Positions 4,292 to 63,425 of a stretch of 64,000 nt of DNA are shown piece after piece (position 1 is the stretch's first letter; each line of letters begins with the position of its first letter). Position numbers and translations under genes: made by a program. The notes under the pieces are model-generated. The model searched no databases. It had not been told where the DNA came from and saw only the letters and a list, made by a program, of their open reading frames with translations. This stretch comes from Acytostelium subglobosum LB1 (taxonomy: Eukaryota > Evosea > Eumycetozoa > Acytosteliales > Acytosteliaceae). Location: positions 62,001-126,000 of the forward strand of contig NW_012236492.1 of assembly GCF_000787575.1 (NCBI RefSeq). The letters are read 5' to 3'.

Positions 4292-7200
4292 TTATTCATT
4301 TGTGGTCGGTGGTGGAGACGACTGGAGTTGATCACCAATGTTGCTGCTGCTATTGTTGTTACTGTTGCTCGCAGCTGGAACCAGTGGCGGTGATGCCGTG
4401 ACCATTCCTTCCTTGATACAATCACTAGAGATGAAGTAGGGCGACAGCGTTGACTTGAGCTGCTCCTTCACCGCCTCGGACGTCTCGGGTGAGAGTGTGA
4501 TCGATTGGATCTTGATGTCGGATGACGCGATTGATTTACACGTGTCGTCCAGCATGAGTGAGAGCGACCACTCAAACTCATACTGCTCCTTGTTGTCGGT
4601 TGATCTGGACTTTTGTCTCTTGCGATGTCGCACAACAATGTTGTTTGTTTCGTTGCGCTCGACCTCGATGCGCCATCCACCCTGTGCGTCCATGAACTGG
4701 AGACTCTTGGCTATTTTCAGTGTCAGCTCAATGACCGCAGGCGCAATGATGGCCTGGTTGCAACACTTGAGCGCGTTGACCACCTTGCTCTCTGCTCCGA
4801 CCACTTCCTCAAGATAGCGGAGCAGGTCGCGCTTCACATCCGCATCGCCAGGTGTCGTAAAGGGAATATATGTTTGATAGGACTTGTCCAGACGATCGAG
4901 ATGCTCTGCCAGCGGTGTCTCGGGCGTGGGCACGTCCGAGTCGTTCAACATCAGCTTGGCCAGTGATTGCACCACTGCATGTATATCAGTCACCTTGCTT
5001 CCAGTGTTGATGGCCTGCTGGCCAATGGTGAAGAAGCAGGCCAGTCTGGGCAGGTCGATGCCAGTCGAAGTTTGTGCCAGTGGCTTGGCAAACGTCTTGG
5101 CGATGTTCTCCTGCCAGGTGACTTGGGCAAGGTCGTCCGCAGCGGGCACGGTGAAGCGCTTGTTCTTGGATTGGGGAGGAGGTTCGATCTTTAGCGACCA
5201 CTCTGCCAACAGGTCCATGTTGGGTGCGTTCAACTCTTGGAACTGGAACAACAGCTTGGTGGCCTTGATCGGGTAGGCCCTCTGTTGCAGCTTCTGCATC
5301 TCAGATACCATTAAAAAGGTGTGGCGCAGCTTGTCTACATTGATATGTGCGCCATCCGCTGTCTTGGTTGGCATGGACGTGTCGAACTGTTGCAACAACG
5401 ACTTGATCGTCGCAAAGTGTGGTACACATGGTGTGCCCAATGCGCCAACGATCTGTTGGTAGGAGTTGGCGTGAAGCTTGAGCCATGGCGACAGAAGATT
5501 ATTGAGATTGTTCAGTTTGGTCACTGTGTCCTTGGGCACAGCATCCCATGAGGCCGTCAATCGCTTGATGTGATGGTTGTTCAGCGCGTTCAATATGGCG
5601 ATTGCCACATTGAAGTTGCACAGGTCCGTGCAACAGATGGTAGCAACCTCCACCATGAGACTGATGGTCATCACTCTCTGTATCTTGTCCTCCACCTGTA
5701 GGATCTCGCCCATGGTCCATTGCGTCCATTCCGCCGAGCGCTTGATCGCCTTGGTGAGATTGGGTGACATGGGCGCGTCGACGCTGCCCTGCACCAAGCG
5801 CACCCAGTCGCTGGATCGAAGGTTGGCAAACACCTGGAAGTCGGCCAGTGTCGCTTGCTCAGCGATCTCTGTGGCAATGAGTGCCTGGTCCTTGCCCGAC
5901 GTGCACATCAGAAGCAGGTTGTCGAATGAGCCACTGCCCTTTCTGCTGTGGAAGTGCTTGGGCACCTTGAGGATGTCTGAAAAGGCAAAGGCCTTGTTGG
6001 ACAGACGGCTGCTAAGTGCTGCCTCGAGATGCGGGAAGCCCTTGAGGATCTTTTGCGACAGCTTCTTGTCCTCCCTGAGCTCGCGGTAGCAGTAGTCCAC
6101 CCAGAGCTTGACGGCCTCGCTGATCTTCTCCTCCTTCTTGGAGGAACGCGTCTTCTTCCACTTCTTCTTGGACGACTCTATATGGTTCTCCTTGTAGAGC
6201 GCGATCAGCTTGTCCACCAGGTCGTTGGGCGTGATGAACAGGTTGTGCGTGACAAAGAACACCAGACTAAAGTAGGCGTCGCAGTGGTGGTAGAAGAGGT
6301 CGGTGGCCTTGTCCACCAGCTTGTCGATGGTTGCCTCGCTCACGAGCAGCTTGCCATCCTCGTTCTTGAATACAATGTCTGGGTCCTTGGCCTCGGTGAA
6401 GAGGTAGTCCAGGTTCTCAATGATGATTCGCAGGGACTCTTCGCGCAGCGCCATGTTGGAGTTGGCCAGCTTAGCGTCGGCTGGACGGAAGAAAGTCGGT
6501 CCAAACGTGCTGGCCAGGATGGTGATGGTCTGCGCCTTGTTGGTCGCCTTGTTCACGTACTTTTGTGTGAGGAACGTCACAAACAGCTGCAGGAAGTTCC
6601 TGCGCAGAATGGACAGTGACCAAATGAGCGATCGCAGATCCTGTAGCTTCACCTCGGGCTTGGTGATGTCGTGGATGTCCAGCAGATTGTTGTAGAACTT
6701 GGTGTTGAACAGTGGCTGTGGCAGCTCGGCAAAGAACATTCGTAGCAGCCCGCCTACTACACGTGGGCTGTTAATCTTGGAAAAGTCGATCTGGGTCTCG
6801 TCAGCTGAGGCGCGAACGCCCTTGACTATTGGGTCGAGATGTGCATCCTGGAAGATCATGGCCACATCAATAATATCAAAGTTGGTCAAGAACGTCAAAG
6901 CTGATGAGATAAACTGCGGCAGGCCATCATCGACTGCAAACAACTTGGTCAATCTGACTCTAAATACTCCTGTTGATTGATTGTTTGATTGGTGAGTGAG
7001 TGAGACTGAGGCCTTTGGATTGCGTACTCAATGATACATACTTGGAACAGACTCAATCTCTACAACATTCTTGATCTTTGATTCGTTGACTGGCGGAGCC
7101 TTTGTCGCATTGGTCTCGATTGTAGATGACTTTTTGGAGCCACTTGATGCTGATAATGAACGTTGCTTCTTCTCTTGCGTCTTTTGTGCCTTGTCCNAAC

Positions 7201-13083: not shown

Positions 13084-15036
13084 ATGAATAATAATAATAA
13101 TAATATATATTTGTTGTCCATGTTGTTGTTGTTGTTGTGCCTGCTGGCTACGACGACAACACCAGTTTCAGCTGGTCTCCCACCTCCCCAATGTCTATGT
13201 CTGAGAATGTTCACGGTAAACAGACTGGACTATATCGAGACGGATAGTTGCGACACGAGTAAACAATACAACTGCACAGCACCTCACAATCAATGTGATC
13301 CAAACTATGCCTTCACCTCCAACGATGGCTACAACAAACTATACGTTGGCGATTGTCCCAACTTGCCCTACGACGAAGACGAAGACGTCCACATCCTAGG
13401 CAGTGTCTGTTGTCAATGTGCCAAAGGCTACATCATGAACAATGTATGTGTACTTAGATCATTTATTAAAATTGATAAATCATTCATTGACCCAATATTG
13501 TAGCAAGCGGATTGTGTACTCCCAGTTGTAGATCCATGTCAGACTGCCAACTGCGCTGGTACTTGCCAGAACTCTGGCGGTACGGCAGTATGTTCTTGTG
13601 CCCCACCTTTGATACTTGGAACTGATTATAAGTCATGCTTCCAGAATGTTTGTTCCACTGCCAATGGTGGATGTCAACAAAGTTGCGAGAGTATTGATGG
13701 AAAGGCCAAGTGCACATGTGCCCAGTACTACTCATTGGCCGCCAACAACAAATCATGTATCCATGATCCAATCAACATCACAGCCATCACTCACCCTGAC
13801 ATATACTTTAATGAAGCTGGCAACATAACAATCATTGGCGCTGGCTTCAATGTGTTGCCAAACTCAAATGTATCGGCATCAATTGGTGATGCACTATGCA
13901 AGCGCGTCAAGGTCATCAACTCAACACATATTGTTTGTCAATTTGCTGGTGATGCCACACCATCAGTCGACAGCAACTCATTGTCTGTTAATGTAACAAT
14001 CGATGGCGCCAAGGCATCCAATCAGTTGTTCTTCTACACTCAATACGTTCAATGTTTGAATGGATGTAGTGGACATGGCACATGTAACAACAAGACTGGC
14101 GAGTGCACTTGTGAGCCAGACTATGGTCGAACCGACTGTTCGTTCAACAAGCAGACCAACAACCTGCCACCACCCACCATCGACGAGTCAGGCGGTACTT
14201 TGTTCCCAATATCCGAGGGCAAGGGAAGCAACTTCACACTCTCCATCATGTTCCTTCGTGAGCTCGACAATCTTGACCGCCAGGTCAAGTTGCTAAAGAT
14301 GTCCGAAATCATTTGGACCGCACGCAATGTCACTCCCGACTCCAACACCTATCACTACCGAGGCGTGTTCCCCAACGACACGGCCACATTTGAGGTGCAG
14401 ATCGACTACTTCAAGGATGCAACAAAGGTCGACTTTGCCGGCGAGACCATTCAGATCCTGGACAACTCGATCAAGTACACGATAAGCATTCAGAACTGGC
14501 GCTTCAACAGCACGCTCAACACGCTCCATATCGTGTACAGCACCAAGTCATCCAACCCCTGCGCTGACATGACCGTCGACAAGAATGTGGGCATCTCCAA
14601 CAGCTCGTCGCCATACCCATTCCTCGACGTTGCCGATGGCACTGGCGCAGTGATGCAAGGTCGTTTCGCCAGCAGGATGTTGATCGACGAGAGGATCGTC
14701 AAGAGTCTCTTTGTGCACCTGCCGACCACAGACAACCTCTACCAGCTGCTCCCCAACGACTCGTTGTCGACTACATTCAACGTGTTGACGGCCAATGTGC
14801 TACCGGCATTCAGTCGTCGCGCCAAGGTCGATCCAAACTTTGGTGTGATGGTTGCAATCAATGGTGTTCGCGACCAGTGTAGCGAGTCGGACAACAAGAT
14901 CGGCTGGAAAATACCAGTGATCGTTGTATGTTCTGTCGTCGGAGCTGCCTTGGTAGCTGTTTCCATCGCATTCATTGCAAGGTCCAAGTTTGTCATGTTG
15001 AAGATGAGCCAAATTAGAATGAAGAATATCGAATAA
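13084..15036 (+). CDS. ComC-like EGF/TIG transmembrane receptor, copy 1
   Basis: Exons 13084-13443 and 13504-15036 give 630 residues. Order of parts: an Asn run and signal peptide (LLSMLLLLLCLLA); a Cys-rich N-terminal region; EGF-like repeats (ANCAGTCQNSGG, STANGGCQQSC); an IPT/TIG domain (ITAITHPDIYFNEAGNITI); another EGF (CSGHGTCNNKTGECTCEPDYG); the beta-sandwich region characteristic of the dictyostelid ComC family (about residues 370-580, GRFASRMLIDERIVKSLFV); one membrane helix (VIVVCSVVGAALVAVSIAF) and a short basic tail. D. discoideum ComC-type proteins act in cell-cell communication during development; the same role here is inference. It forms a tandem pair with the next gene. Confidence 0.88.
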
Positions 15037-15943: not shown

Positions 15944-18126
15944 ATGAAGAATAATAATAATATTTTAAAGACATTGATGGTCTGCATAACAATTGTTATA
16001 CTCTCAATTAGTATGGACAAGGTGGATGCTTATGATGCCGCTTGTCTTTGTGAGTATATGTATAAAATTGCAAAGGATACAAGAGGTGGACATGATAGAG
16101 ATGATAGGAGATTCTCAGATAATATAGTAGGAGGAGAAGGACATGGAGTAGAATCAGGTAGAAGGTTATTGGATGATGATGACAATTATAGAGTTGATAC
16201 ATCACAATGCAACTCTAATAACAACTTGTATCAATGCAGTGGATGTACCAATATGGTACAACCTGGACTCATTAACTTTAACCAATGTCCAGGTTCGAGA
16301 TACAGGACTAGTAAAGTATATCTCGCACAACCTATATGTTGTAATTGTATGCCACCCAACTCAATCCAAGATCCAAATGTAAGTTGTAATTGTTATAGTT
16401 GAGTTTGTTCAAACTCATTTGACAACCCAACTAACACATGTCCACTCAATCAATTAATCAAATACTATAGGTAGTTCAATGTGTAAACCCTTGTAATAAT
16501 AAGAATTGCTCGGATACTTGCTCGGTGAATTCAAATAGTCAGGCTGTTTGCGGTTGCAAAGCTGGAGATAATCTTGGAACTGATGGAAGGACTTGTTTCA
16601 TCAATATGTGTGCCAAGAACAATGGAGGATGTTCTGGAAACTGCTCAAGTACCAATGGTGTTAGGACATGTTCATGTACTCCACCCCTGGTGCTGGCACC
16701 AGACAAACAATCCTGTGTAGGCCAAGACTACTGCAAAACAAACAATGGTGGATGTAATCAAATATGTGCGAACACAATTGATGCACCCACCTGCAGTTGT
16801 TACCCAGGCTACACACTCAATGTCAAGGATCTCAAGACATGTGAGAAGGATAAGTTCCAGATATTGTCTACCAACACACCAACTGTTTATCACAATCAAC
16901 GTGGATTGATCACTATTTATGGTGATGGATTTGGCGCCGCCCCCAATCCCAAGGTTACTGGAACGATCGGTGATGCCAAATGTCTGAATGTGACAAGGAT
17001 CAACTCAACTGCGTTGGTCTGTGACTTTGCCGGTGATGCCACCCCAGCAGACAAGGGAGAGTCACTCTATGTAAACATCACAATCGATGGAGTTACATCA
17101 TCCAATCAGGTCTTCTTCTACATTCAATACTTCCCATGTCCGGGCAATTGCAATGGCAATGGTGTGTGCAACAATCAGACTGGCGAGTGCACTTGTAATG
17201 AAGGATTTGGTCGTCAAGACTGTTCTGAGGCCAAGCAAACGAACAATATCCCACCACCACAAGTCGACAATGATGGCAACACAGTGTTCAACCTTAGTGG
17301 AGTCGGAACGAATGTCACCCTCTCAATCAAGTACCTTCGCGAGGTGTCCAACATTGGAGAAGAGATCAAGTTGCTACGACTGTCAGACATTGAATGGACC
17401 AATCGCACAGCCAGCATCGAGTCACCAACCTACACATACTCTGGACGCTTCAAGAACAGCACTGTGGTGCTCGATCTCCAAATCGTCTACTACGCCAAGG
17501 CATCAAAGACTGAGTTTGCAGGCGAGTCCATCCAGATCTACGACAACTCAATCAAGTATACAATTGGCATCTCCAACTGGGCTTTTGGATCATCACTCAA
17601 CTACCTTCAGGTTGTCTATCAGACTCAGGTACTCGACCCATGCGACAAGATGTCATTCGACAAGAGCTTTGGTGTGGCCAATGGCGGATCATATCCCTAT
17701 ATGACAATGGACACTGGCGAGGGAGTGGTGATGGAGGGCAGATTCGCGAGCAGGATGATAGTGGACGAGCGTATAGTCAAGAGCAGTTTCATCAAGTTAC
17801 CATTGAGTGATCAACTTTACAACGAGTCTGCACCCAGCACTCCTGGAGTGTTTGTCGCTCTCACTGCCAATGTCATTTCTGCATTTGGAAAATCAGTTAA
17901 ATTGGATCCCAACTTTGGAGTGATCGTTTCTTTGGATAGTGGCAATGATGGAACTTGTGGACAAGGTGGTAGCAAAGGTATTAGTTGGAAGGTGCCAGTC
18001 ATTGTCGTATGTTCAGTGGTCGGCGCAGCCCTTCTCACAGTGGGTATGATCTTCCTGGTACGATCCAGGTTTGTCCAATTCCGTGTACACGAGATGAAAC
18101 TCAAAAATATATCCTCCAAAGATTAA
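15944..18126 (+). CDS. ComC-like EGF/TIG transmembrane receptor, copy 2
   Basis: Exons 15944-16378 and 16471-18126 give 696 residues, with the same layout as the upstream neighbour: signal peptide (LMVCITIVILSISMDKVDA), Cys-rich N terminus, EGF-like modules (AKNNGGCSGNC, CKTNNGGCNQICAN), IPT/TIG domain (VYHNQRGLITIYGDGFG), EGF (CNGNGVCNNQTGECTC), ComC-type sandwich region (EGRFASRMIVDERIVKSSF), one membrane helix (VIVVCSVVGAALLTVGMIF) and a basic tail. It has one more EGF module than copy 1, and an acidic/basic insert (residues 45-85, DDRRFSDNIVGG, LLDDDDN) absent from copy 1. Intron position matches, so this is a tandem duplication that has since diverged. Confidence 0.88.
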
Positions 18127-57524: not shown

Positions 57525-58214
57525 ATGGTATTGAGCGATTTTGATTTGGTTTGCCAGATAAAGGCTGTAATCATTATGGATAGTAATGGCAAGCGAATAC
57601 GTAGTCTCTTCTATGATAGTGCACTCAATGATTTCAAGACAGAGAAGGATAAGAGAGCATTCGAATTAAGACTACATGAGAAGAATAAGGTTACAAATAG
57701 TATGTTTGTTGTTGTTGACTAAGTATCATCATTAGTACTAACATGATACACATTATAAAGGTGAGTTGGAGATAATTGATCAATACATTGTTGTAGGAGG
57801 AAAGACTGGAGATATACAGGTCTATGTTGTAGGACTCAACTCTGTTAATGAGTTGGCATTGTTGGACGTACTAAATGTCATCACAAGTCTGATGCGAAGG
57901 ATATGTGCCACAGAGGACTCTTCAATCATCTCAAAGAAGTTGTTGTTGGAGAACTACAACATGCTTTGTTTGTATTTAGATGAAGTTATCAATGATGGGT
58001 ATGTGAACATTTCAGATGGTCAATCGGTCACTCAGGTCACTCAATGAATGAATGAACGATACTAACACACAGCAACAACAACAGCATTGTATTCGAAGTC
58101 GATGAGGACACCATTGTTGGAAGAGTTCCACTTGCCGATCAGAGTATGACCGATTTGAACAATGCAATTGAGTTGGCCAAAGAAAGATTCTCAATCTTTA
58201 CCAAAGGCAGATAA
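57525..58214 (+). CDS. copZ: Coatomer subunit zeta
   Basis: Three exons (57525-57700, about 57761-57998, about 58075-58214), about 180 residues, normal for the family. Longin-type fold: VCQIKAVIIMDSNGKRIRSL, FYDSALNDFKTEKDKRAFE, then ELEIIDQYIVVGGKTGDIQV, YNMLCLYLDEVINDG, IVFEVDEDTIVGRVPLAD and IELAKERFSIFTKGR. It is the small subunit of the COPI F-subcomplex, which coats Golgi-to-ER vesicles. The start is the ATG after an AT-rich leader. The introns carry CTAAC-like branch sites. Confidence 0.92.
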
Positions 58215-58533: not shown

Positions 58534-61500
58534 ATGACATCATTGTTGGACTCAATCGTAACATCGATTCGAAAGTTGAAGAGTGGGACTCAGACTGTGG
58601 TTCAAACTCGTGAAAGTGAGTATGCCCACCAATCAATCAATCAATCATCCAGGAACCTATATATTAATGACAACATTCCAGTTGAATCAATCAAACCAAC
58701 AATCAAGTTCATTTGTGATGGATGCAAATGTTTGATTGAGGATGGTCAGGAGAGATTCTGTTGTTCAGAATGTCCAGACTTTGATCTGTGCAAGACATGT
58801 TGGATAAAGGAGGTTCGTTTCTATCAACAACTTGAGAAACAACAAAAGATTAGTGACGGTGAGCCACTCTCTCCTGAACTAATGAACGCACCTACCGTCA
58901 ACCAACCATTGACCTACTCTCACACCGACTCTGCGCCACTTCCACATTTATTCACAAGGGAGATATGTACGTCATCGTCCGTGGACAGTCCTGATTGATC
59001 TCAATACTAACATACTTTTAGACTCTCAACAAACAAAACTAAGTCTTATGCAGGCTGATACAACCTATGAATCGATGCAGTAAGTTGGCATGGCTACACC
59101 CCACTGGAATGATCCCACTGACCCATCAATCAATCATTCTCAAACCAACTCAGGAACTCATTCAGGGAGCATAAACATAGACGATGTTTAGGACAGCGTA
59201 GAAGGGTACCGGTATCGGATAAGCATCCATTTGGTCTGGCAGAGTTTGTTTGGTTGACTTTTGAAGAGGTGTATGAGTTGACAGAGACTTTTGGAAAGGC
59301 TCTGGCATCAGTGGTACCCACCCGCACGTTCATGGGCATCTGCGCAAACAACTGTCTCGAATGGTATACAGCAGACTTTGCAGGACTATGGTATGGAATG
59401 CCAGTCGTTCCAATTCATCATCAGGTCAGCACAAGTGATCTGGTAGAGATATTGGACAATGCAGACATTGGTGTCATTGTGATATCAAGTGTGGCCATGG
59501 ACACCTTGGTTCAAGCAATCGATATAAATAGAGCGGCTAATGGTGGTCGCTACACTGGCCAGTTGCGACTGATCATTCACATGGAGAATGAGTTTGATGT
59601 GCAGCTGGTCGATCGTGTCCCGTCAAAGATCGACTTCAAACTGTACACAGAGATGATGGAGCTTGGCAAGACCATAAAGAATGCCAAGCACAATCCATTC
59701 AAAACAGATGAGATCATAAGTGTCGTCTATACATCAGGTAGCACTGGCACACCAAAAGGTGTGATCACAAAAGACATCGAGTATAACAAGTCAGTCACTG
59801 ATGGCTTCTCCAAGTATCCATCATTGATCCTAAGCTTTGCCACCTTGTGTAAGTCACTCAATCACAGGAACTATTCCAATCACTCACTCACTTAATCAAA
59901 CTATCACAGCCCACTCACAGAGAGAGAATGATCACAGGATATTGTTCCATGGAGGAAGAGTTGGATTGTACTCAAGGAGCATGGAGTCATTGTTTGATGA
60001 TGTTAGGACACTGCGACCATCATCATTTTGGGCAGTCCCACGTGTTTGGAATCTAATATACTCTCAGTATGTCTGTGAGTTGGACAAGTATGCAAAGGAG
60101 AACCCACAGGCAACAGAGAAGGAGTGCAAGAGTAAGACAATTGAGAAGTTCTCTGGTATGCTTGGCAACAGACTGCGATACATTGGTACTGGAGGAGCAC
60201 CCATCTCAAGCGAGGTACTCAAGTTCATGCAAGATTGTTGGCACCAAGTATTGAATGTGTGTGACAGCTATGGTCTGAGTGAGGTGGCTGGCATATTCAT
60301 CGATGGTCGCATTGCTGATGACATCCAATTCAGACTGGAGCCGGTGCCAGAGTTTGGTTACTCACCATCTGATCAACCCAATCCACGTGGTGAGCTTGTT
60401 GTCAAGTCTGCTCGCATGTCCACTGGCTATCACAAGAATGAAGAGTTGACCAAACAATCATTCGTCGATGGATGGTTCTTCACTGGCGACATTGTCGAAC
60501 AAATAGGATATCGAAGGATCAAGATCATCGATCGCAAGAAGCATGCTTTCAAGCTTAGCAATGGAGAGTTTGTAGCGTAAGTTGGCCTACACCTTCATCA
60601 CACCCAAGCACTCACTTACCCTTGCCCTACCCTCAGCCCTGAACCATTGGAGAATGTATTCCGCTCGAGTAATATGATTGAGCAAATATTCATTCATGGA
60701 GATAGGATGAAGACATTCTTGGTTGCGATAGTTATCCCAAGGAAGGGTGTTATGGAGCAGTTTGGACTAAAGTATAACATTGATAGTGATGCAGTGCAGA
60801 TCAATAGAGATCTCAAGAGTCTGATATTCCAAGAGATACAAAGGATAGCTGATCAAAGCAAGTTGATGACACATAGTATACCAAAGACTATAACAGTGGA
60901 CAACACAATATGGACGATAGATAATCACTTGCTTACAGGATCAGGAAAGTTCTGTCGACGCAAGTTATACGCTCACTACAAGGATGCCATCACCAAGATG
61001 TATGAATCAATCGAGATTGTACAATCAGCATTGCGCGATGATACCAAAGTCAATAATGCAGCTTTGATGGAGTATGTCAAGAGTGTGTTGGGCGTGGACG
61101 ATCAAGTGGACATCTCCAAGTTATCATTCACACAGATTGGAGGTGATAGTTTGGGTGCAGTGAGACTATCATCATTGCTCAAGGAGAAGGTGAACATCAA
61201 TGTCTCACCACAGTTCATATTGAACAAGAACAACAACCTTCAGTCTCTGGCCAGGATGATGGAGATGAACATGGACGAGTACGAGCTGCCACCTGTCAAG
61301 ATTGATTGGGAGCAAGAGATGGTCCTTGAAGACGCGATACAGATGGGCGACAAGACTATCAAACCAATCAAAAATTCTGGCAACTGTGTGTTCTTGACTG
61401 GTGCCACGGGATTCCTGGGATCATTCCTTCTTTTTGAACTCATCACCAAGCCATCAGTGGAGAGTGTGTTGTGTCTGGTGCGATCAGTTACTAGCGAGCA

Positions 61501-62479
61501 AGAGGCATTCAACAAGCTTGTACAAACACTCACAGTCAAATATCGTCTGGATATTACTGAAGAGCAAAAGAAGAAGATAGTACCAGTGCTGGGCGACTTG
61601 GAGTTGCCACGCTTTGGCCTGAGCGAGGAGGAGTTCATCTCAATGGCCAATCGCATCGACTTCACCATTCACAATGGAGCCATTGTCAACATGTTGATAC
61701 CATATCCCAATATGCGTGCGGCTAATGTTGGAGCAGTTCAAGAGGTGTTACGACTTGCATGCTCTGGCGAGCATATCATCAACACATCGATAATATCAAC
61801 CATTGGTACCTTTACTGATCGTCACTATACAATCACAGAGAATGCCGAGCCCACAATGGAGCGAATCGATCATATGAATGGATATAATCAATCAAAGTTG
61901 GTGGCTGAGCAGTTGGTATATGAGGCAAAGCGTCGCGGACTGCCACTCATTCTCTATCGACCTGGTACCATATTCGCACACACTGGAACAGGCATTGACA
62001 ATGACAATGATTTCGTCAGCATGACCATCCGTGGAATCATATCGATGGGTGCATGCCCCGTTATGTTCAAGGAGGGTGAGGGTCTCTTCAACTTGTCACC
62101 TGTGGACTGGGTCAGCTCATCAATCGTTGGACTCTCACTGCAGGCGGACCTGTATAACGAAGCTGGCAAGAGCAAGCCAAACGTGTTCCACATGGTCAAT
62201 GAGACATCGGTATCACTAGATGATGTGTGCAGCGCCATTCAACCACCATTGGAGCGATGTTCCTTCGTTCAATGGAGAGACAAGTTGGATGCACAGATGG
62301 ACAATCCATTATATCCACTTAGGATGGCTTATAGAAATGGATTTGGTGGATATGGTAAATTCAAGAATCCAACGACCAGCTCCAACTTGGATCTTATCAA
62401 CATGCCCAAGTGTCCATACATCACTGATGAAATGTTGGCCAAGAATATCCAACATTTAATGTCCAATTTGAATAAATAA
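58534..62479 (+). CDS. ZZ-finger, adenylation, carrier and thioester-reductase protein (carboxylic-acid-reductase-like)
   Basis: Six exons (58534-58619, 58653-58966, 59022-59079, 59154-59848, 59910-60576, 60637-62479), phase-consistent, 1,220 residues. Order: ZZ-type zinc finger (CDGCKCLIEDGQERFCCSEC, DLCKTCW, residues about 50-90); an adenylation domain of the acyl-CoA-synthetase/CAR kind (WLTFEEVYELTETFGKAL, VVYTSGSTGTPKGV, SYGLSEVAG, GWFFTGDIVEQIGYRRIKII, DRKKHAFKLSNGEFVAPEP); a carrier domain with its phosphopantetheine serine (QIGGDSLGAVRLSSLL); and an NAD(P)-binding thioester-reductase domain (FLTGATGFLGSFLL, STIGTF, YNQSKLVAEQL). Known carboxylic acid reductases activate an acid with ATP, load it on the carrier and release it as an aldehyde. 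The N-terminal ZZ finger is not part of those I know. The substrate is unknown; the adenylation part suggests a fatty or aryl acid rather than an amino acid. Confidence 0.85.
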
Positions 62480-62567: not shown

Positions 62568-63425
62568 TTATAAGTCATCACGGTTGGTTGTGGAGGTGAT
62601 TGGGTTCCAGGTTGCCAGATCCTTCAACCAGCTCTCAGCCTTGAGCTTTGCCAAAAAGTTGGAATCCTCACCAATGTAGATGTGAAGTGGCAGGGCGGTA
62701 TTGTCAACGACCAACTTGAATACAATGTTGGCCAACTTGGCAGGATCACCCTTGGTGAAATCAGCAAGGCTCTTGGTGGCCTGCTCCTTGTGGAATGGTT
62801 GGTAATCATCGATTGACTGAGCGGCCACTCTAAACTTGGATCCAGAGTAGATATCAGTGTTGAATCCACCTGGGTTGACTGTGAGCACCTTGATTCCAAA
62901 TGGTTTCATCTCCTCAGCCAGGCTCTCAGTGGCAACTTCCAAAGCAGCCTTGGATGCAGAGTAGGCGCCGTAAGCAGGTAGTCCAAAGTTGGCCATTATC
63001 GAGGTCACATTGATAATATAGCCACTACGCTTGGCACGCAAGATAGGTGTGATGGCACGGATGACAGCAAGTGGTGCATAAAAGTTGACTGCAAAGTTGT
63101 CCTTGATGTCATTGATGGACAACTCCTCGATCACACCGGAGAGACCATAGCCAGGATTGTTAAGTACAATGTCGATGGTACCGAATCTGGCAGTGGTCTG
63201 GCGAACGGATGATTGGATACTGGACTCATCCAGGAGGTCGACTTGGAGAGCAAGGAATGATTCGGAGTCTGGGCCAAAGATATCGTTGAGGGCTTTCTTG
63301 TCTCTGGATGTGGCGGCCACCTTTTGTCCATTATTCAACAAAGTTTGGACCAAGGCCTTTCCAAGGCCCGTTGAGCAACCAGTAATATACCAGACGTTGA
63401 CAGATGAGTTGGATGAAGTAGACAT
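62568..63425 (-). CDS. Short-chain dehydrogenase/reductase
   Basis: A 285-residue single-exon classical SDR. Cofactor motif WYITGCSTGLGKAL (TGxxxGxG); VDLLDESSIQSSV; NNPGYG in place of NNAG; catalytic serine in INVTSIMA and Y-x-x-x-K in GAYSASKAALEVA; then VLTVNPGGFNTDI. It oxidises or reduces an alcohol/carbonyl with NAD(P); the substrate cannot be read. It is convergent with the reductase gene to its left (89 bp between stops); they could be functionally linked (aldehyde to alcohol) but shared regulation is not shown. Codon use is fairly GC-rich, hinting at good expression. Confidence 0.88.
   Translation of the reverse strand: MSTSSNSSVNVWYITGCSTGLGKALVQTLLNNGQKVAATSRDKKALNDIFGPDSESFLALQVDLLDESSIQSSVRQTTARFGTIDIVLNNPGYGLSGVIEELSINDIKDNFAVNFYAPLAVIRAITPILRAKRSGYIINVTSIMANFGLPAYGAYSASKAALEVATESLAEEMKPFGIKVLTVNPGGFNTDIYSGSKFRVAAQSIDDYQPFHKEQATKSLADFTKGDPAKLANIVFKLVVDNTALPLHIYIGEDSNFLAKLKAESWLKDLATWNPITSTTNRDDL

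Follow-up and report, generated by a model that had tools for sequence, protein, structure and literature searches.

Carboxylic acid reductases (CARs) serve to make aldehydes and alcohols, and few of them are known from eukaryotes outside the fungi. For the reductases of PKS and NRPS systems, either an aldehyde or an alcohol is described as the product (PMC13303079, section 9), and the reductase domain of MxaA has been studied for primary alcohol production, according to a title cited in the same article. In Dictyostelium discoideum, 21 polyketide synthases (PKSs) are reported with offloading enzymes after the ACP, of which two are chalcone synthases while the remaining ones are most probably thioester reductases (PMC12828403). 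The ZZ zinc fingers of p62 and HERC2 belong to a different field; they have an acidic pocket that binds N-terminal residues (PMC6197226, PMC9001736), and in p62 the residues described as binding N-terminal Arg are D129, N132, R139, D147 and D149 (PMC6197226). In Acytostelium subglobosum LB1, we analysed a stretch of 64,000 nucleotides of contig NW_012236492.1 (the window), in which a single gene probably joins a finger of this kind, acting as a docking module, to a CAR-like carboxylate reductase with an MxaA-like reductase domain.

The gene occupies positions 58534-62479 on the + strand and consists of six exons in one open frame that begins at ATG 58534 and ends at TAA 62479 (Table 1); an AATAAA overlaps the stop codon. 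When GT/AG combinations were enumerated, two gave one open frame, one of 1209 aa with intron 1 at 58616-58681 (66 nt) and one of 1220 aa with intron 1 at 58620-58652 (33 nt). The GT..AG introns 2-5 measure 55, 74, 61 and 60 nt. Since a 33-nt intron falls outside this range of 55-74 nt, we prefer the 1209 aa model; of the phase-consistent gene of 1,220 residues in the preliminary description, the six exons and the single frame are retained, and the length is revised. With intron 1 retained, the frame is still open (1231 aa), and in all three versions the ZZ-like finger is in frame with the remaining domains. The coordinates proposed earlier and the domain order of ZZ-like finger, adenylation, carrier and thioester reductase hold. 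In the whole protein, Pfam matches above cut-off were obtained for AMP-binding (136.3 bits, cut-off 29.9), AMP-binding_C_3 (28.8 bits, cut-off 20.8), PP-binding (35.4 bits, cut-off 20.8) and NAD_binding_4 (186.8 bits, cut-off 20.1). Thus, adenylation, carrier and reductase are recognized by their profiles and the C terminus is indeed a reductase (PF07993), but the ZZ profile (PF00569) matched with 15.8 bits, below its cut-off of 21.4. The observation of one multidomain gene is confirmed, with the ZZ finger marked as borderline.

Table 1. Features of the gene, with positions counted from the first nucleotide of the window.
Feature	Position	Strand	Evidence or detail
Exon 1, N terminus	58534..58615	+	ATG 58534; in-frame Met absent between ATG and upstream stop
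Exon 2, whole ZZ-like finger	58682..58966	+	in-frame coding score -0.08 vs -0.64 and -0.88 in the other forward frames
ZZ zinc finger core, residues 36-69	58705..58806	+	PF00569 21.3 bits on exon 2; HERC2/p62 matches
H108 and H116, nearest candidate His ligands for a putative second zinc site	58921..58947	+	sequence
Intron 2, ZZ exon to rest	58967..59021	+	donor GTACGT, TACTAAC 59005-59011, acceptor TTTTAG
Exon 3, linker, 58 nt	59022..59079	+	
Exon 4, first part of adenylation domain, P-loop YTSGSTGTPKG	59154..59848	+	
Exon 5, remainder of adenylation core	59910..60576	+	
Exon 6, adenylation C-subdomain with K700, carrier, reductase, stop TAA	60637..62479	+	
Carrier (PP-binding) domain, residues 738-803	61061..61258	+	PF00550 35.4 bits
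Phosphopantetheine Ser767, in GGDSL	61148-61150	+	
Thioester reductase domain, TGATGFLG, Y1012-x3-K1016, G1039	61388..62476	+	PF07993 186.8 bits; TIGR01746; MxaA fold match

The activating half of the protein is of the CAR type, as had been proposed for its adenylation and carrier modules. Against PDB sequences, the adenylation (A) domain scored 195-211 bits with four CARs (best 6oz1, 210.9), compared to at most 61.8 bits with non-CAR chains among the matches listed, and the alignment with the CAR 5msp runs nearly end to end, covering query residues 173-1097. Relatives were collected in a genome scan that gave at least 589 matching stretches and at least 97 relatives, of which 80 were kept; rows with an A match above 150 bits and a reductase match were counted as CAR. 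In a quick tree of 47 rows, for which 46 of the 76 A matches were selected (20 out of 26 CAR rows plus, by our own labels, 15 ACSL, 5 FadD and 6 NRPS), the A domain is the sister of the 20 bacterial CAR rows with an SH-aLRT of 100, on a long branch. CAR-type features of the A domain, i.e., P-loop, catalytic Lys and conserved His (K343, H375, K588, K700), are present. Altogether, 15 A and carrier residues including these four and S767 are the expected motif residues, which is not an independent test since they were chosen from invariant columns of a five-row alignment. Besides the protein, that alignment holds four bacterial plasmid CAR-like rows, annotated as CAR (two), thioester-reductase protein and FadD (one each). 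Nine relatives were found on viral contigs, and all nine match solely within residues 159-718, the adenylation part.

The reductase (R) domain points elsewhere. It carries the Tyr-x3-Lys of SDR enzymes and the NADP motif (Y1012, K1016, TGATGFLG), Tyr1012 and Lys1016 being invariant in 28 of 28 rows, and it passes TIGR01746 with 246.8 bits (cut-off 213.35), compared with 84.8 bits for the CAR profile. T984 is the equivalent of the catalytic Thr by pairwise alignment with MxaA only, as MAFFT misaligned the Thr column. In searches of PDB sequences, MxaA (184.6 bits) and a Streptomyces PKS reductase (153.3 bits) were found well ahead of the CARs (66.6 bits at most; NcCAR 37.5). Likewise, among the matches listed for ORFs of bacterial loci, NRPS/PKS rows reached 192 bits and CAR rows not more than 102, and the best identities (38.8-39.2%) were those of cyanobacterial NRPS. 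The best 30 of 126 plasmid records related to R are annotated as NRPS (22), polyketide synthase, amino acid adenylation and thioester reductase domain (two each) or lack annotation (two); a CAR annotation does not occur among these 30. The structure of R was predicted from an alignment with 13 NRPS/PKS and 14 CAR rows, and the model is confident (pLDDT 85.1). Its best fold match in the PDB is MxaA (E 2.9e-28, TM 0.83), followed by 8v1x, a mycobacterial NRPS reductase and then CAR R domains (best E 2.4e-18, TM 0.77), with the NcCAR R domain 8aep at rank 27. We conclude that the reductase is not that of a typical CAR and is nearest to PKS/NRPS terminal reductases in sequence, profile and fold.

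This has consequences for the expected product. Asp at the position of D998 in SrCAR reportedly helps CARs to stop at the aldehyde. In our protein, G1039 aligns with D998 (numbering read off the alignment), and its column reads G (11 rows) or A (2 rows) in the 13 NRPS/PKS rows, compared to D (11), G (2) or N (1) in the 14 CAR rows; four plasmid CAR-like rows outside these 14 have D three times and G once (L002). The enzyme had been interpreted as a CAR-like protein forming aldehydes, which holds in outline and agrees with the CAR-like adenylation and carrier domains but is only partly supported, because R resembles the MxaA type more than CARs and carries the Gly typical of PKS/NRPS. An alcohol instead of an aldehyde is therefore a serious alternative. 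It appears quite possible that R is a four-electron domain of the MxaA type and the product mainly alcohol, as MxaA is the nearest match in both sequence and fold and Gly replaces the Asp usual in CARs. However, the same Gly occurs in the two CAR rows and the CAR-like plasmid row mentioned, PKS/NRPS reductases are described as also stopping at the aldehyde (PMC13303079), and NcCAR shows aldehyde reduction as a side activity (PMC10168641).

The discordant similarity of the two halves, A to CARs and R to NRPS/PKS, could also mean that R was swapped in from a PKS or NRPS, resulting in a chimera. The row of our protein shares 0.50/1.05 of the CAR stem in A, compared to 0.22/1.53 in R, and a clade of 26 CAR-R rows leaves the protein out at 100/100 in an R tree built with 46 of 50 R matches (26 CAR and 20 labelled NRPS/PKS, with L048, L057, L070 and L079 left out). 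R is thus not inside the bacterial CAR-R clade, outside of which this first tree is unresolved. On the other hand, a sister position of R to the CARs is not rejected by the AU test (p 0.403; the grouping appears in 9% of 200 bootstrap trees), and a smaller LG+G4 tree gives this sister position without constraint. The smaller trees each comprised 19 CAR rows, to which 13 NRPS/PKS rows were added for R and 13 other rows for A. The rows compared with R are without dictyostelid PKS reductases, and the protein sits on long branches in the A as well as the R trees. From these trees, a swap of the domain and an old sister lineage cannot be told apart. With the first R tree unresolved, the second placing R beside the CARs and the AU test favoring neither reading, we do not regard a chimera as proven; the swap seems to us a possible but doubtful origin.

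In front of the enzyme lies the ZZ-like finger. Searched with exon 2 alone, PF00569 reached 21.3 bits (E 2.4e-4), just below the cut-off of 21.4, and the best matches of this exon among sequences of solved structures are the ZZ domains of HERC2 and p62 (E 3e-5 to 1.2e-4). The core contains C39, C42, C55, C58, C64 and C67 together with D40, R52, D60 and D62, and its six Cys have the C2C, C2C, C2C spacing of ZZ fingers, which is common to p62/SQSTM1, HERC2 and our protein. In the six reading frames of the window, this spacing combined with the Asp residues has a single occurrence, compared to none in 60 random windows with the same dinucleotide make-up. Aligned with p62, D129, R139, D147 and D149 correspond to D40, R52, D60 and D62, and N132 is replaced by K43. 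Since four of the five residues binding N-terminal Arg in p62 are kept, docking of a protein by the finger is plausible, and most likely the N-terminal ZZ would be a docking module which binds another protein and thereby places or regulates the enzyme. Alternatively, the match may be a decayed or non-zinc-binding remnant without function. The sub-threshold Pfam score is compatible with this, as is the poor AlphaFold2 model of the ZZ exon (pLDDT 53.9). Furthermore, the last CxxC is not immediately followed by a His pair; candidate His residues first appear about 40 residues on, and compared with p62 and HERC2 the finger has a long insertion ahead of any His. Nevertheless, a remnant is unlikely, given that all six Cys and the four pocket residues are kept and the matches with HERC2 and p62 are significant. 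As for the partner, it is rather improbable, though worth stating, that the ZZ serves as a functional receptor recognizing the N termini of proteins (arginylated N-degron or similar), bringing the hybrid CAR/PKS-type reductase to cargo, a membrane or a degradation site where aldehyde or alcohol would be made on demand; if true, this would be an enzyme of a new plan.

Whether the finger belongs to the enzyme at all depends on the gene model, which with high confidence predicts one gene for both the ZZ and the CAR-like part. In the competing model, a small ZZ protein (ATG 58534, stop 58996-58998) is followed by a separate CAR-like gene starting at M141 (ATG 59075). Indeed, ORF 58534-58998 can be read through with no intron and encodes 154 aa when intron 1 is retained, and among the matches listed the CAR-like proteins align only from residue 124 onward. 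Coding scores of exons 1-3 are below those of exons 4-6; exons 2-6 each score best in their own frame, whereas for exon 1 its own frame has no advantage over another (-0.16 and -0.17). The stretch 3' of exon 2 scores -0.09 compared to -0.08 for exon 2 itself, so the score hardly separates exon from intron there. In general, coding scores are weak evidence on introns, since certain frames within introns reach exon-like values (0.05 and 0.42 for introns 3 and 5). Splicing signals argue for one gene: intron 2 starts with a donor close to the consensus, contains a TACTAAC box and ends with a T-rich acceptor (TTTTAG). TACTAAC, likely the branch-point word, is enriched in the window (13 sites compared to 3.88 expected, a count reached in none of 100 shuffles) and also occurs at 57736 and 58060, in inferred introns of the upstream gene. 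Exon 3 is in phase and has its best coding score in that frame. Two genes would moreover leave an intergenic gap of 76 nt and have an intron split the downstream gene five bases past the start of its ATG. On balance, this model is very unlikely.

The surroundings of the gene were inspected as well. Tail to tail with it, 88 nt away, lies a classical short-chain dehydrogenase on the - strand (62571-63425; PF00106, 146 bits); it could act on the aldehyde or alcohol product, but a shared function is only a guess. Upstream, a gene at 57525-58214 on the + strand has TACTAAC boxes (57736, 58060) in both of its apparent introns. It is probably coatomer subunit zeta, judged from a PDB match of its first piece (E 0.003); Pfam gave no match on two pieces. 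Further away, an ORF at 4295-7027 (- strand) combines RhoGAP, RasGEF_N and RasGEF with a GlfB-like C-terminal domain. The adjoining ORFs 13504-15033 and 16471-18123 (+ strand) contain FXa_inhibition (EGF-like) and ComC supersandwich domains, the former additionally a TIG domain, and are likely surface proteins. FNIP repeats are also found among the neighbors; these repeats, ComC supersandwich and GlfB-like domains are typical of dictyostelids. When the window was searched for paralogs (tblastn, E 0.01), only the gene itself matched, and scans for tRNAs and Rfam families gave no hits in the window. At two bacterial loci with CAR-like genes, we noticed an alcohol dehydrogenase gene 17 nt 3' of the CAR-like gene (Sphingobium, L001:4674-5732) and a phosphopantetheinyl transferase gene ending 49 nt upstream of it (Curtobacterium, L004:867-1469).

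By analogy with known families, the chemistry would comprise activation, carrier loading and reduction. The A domain would convert ATP and an acid to acyl-AMP, the acyl group would be passed to the phosphopantetheine arm on Ser767, and the R domain would release it as an aldehyde using NADPH. A further reduction to the alcohol is possible because R is MxaA/PKS-NRPS-like instead of typically CAR-like. The N-terminal ZZ may dock a partner protein, by which the enzyme would be placed or regulated. The enzyme type is known, and its combination with a zinc finger at the front looks unusual: an architecture of ZZ and CAR was not found among the titles and abstract starts listed from open-licence PMC text, in which the ZZ domain was not matched together with carboxylic acid reductase, nor the ZZ-type zinc finger together with Dictyostelium and AMP-binding. 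A dictyostelid protein in which an activating half of the CAR type precedes a PKS/NRPS-like reductase would give clues to how these modules came together. If an enzyme like this carries a protein-binding finger, the finger would provide a way to study how cells position a source of reactive aldehydes.

Among known systems, the bacterial type I CARs (SrCAR, MmCAR; 5msp, 5msc, 5mso, 6oz1) are alike in the A-carrier-R order, which the protein follows within one chain, in the sequence of A and carrier and in catalytic residues. Nevertheless, identity with the four bacterial rows is 25-27%, the NCBIfam CAR equivalog NF041592 scores 426.9 bits compared to its cut-off of 1300, and R falls outside the bacterial CAR-R clade. 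The ZZ-type Cys pattern is absent from the 26 bacterial CAR-like ORFs examined, of which at least one (L021) is cut at its 5' end by the contig boundary. Fungal CARs and L-aminoadipate reductase (NcCAR R 8aep; TIGR03443) have the general A-carrier-R plan in common with the protein, with the NcCAR R domain a weak match to R (37.5 bits). MxaA (4u7w, 4w4t) and the S. coelicolor PKS R domain (8v1x) are alike in R sequence, MxaA also being the best fold match, and most NRPS/PKS rows compared have Gly at the D998 position as found here. In those systems, however, R ends a PKS or NRPS line, whereas in A. subglobosum it follows a CAR-type A-carrier module.
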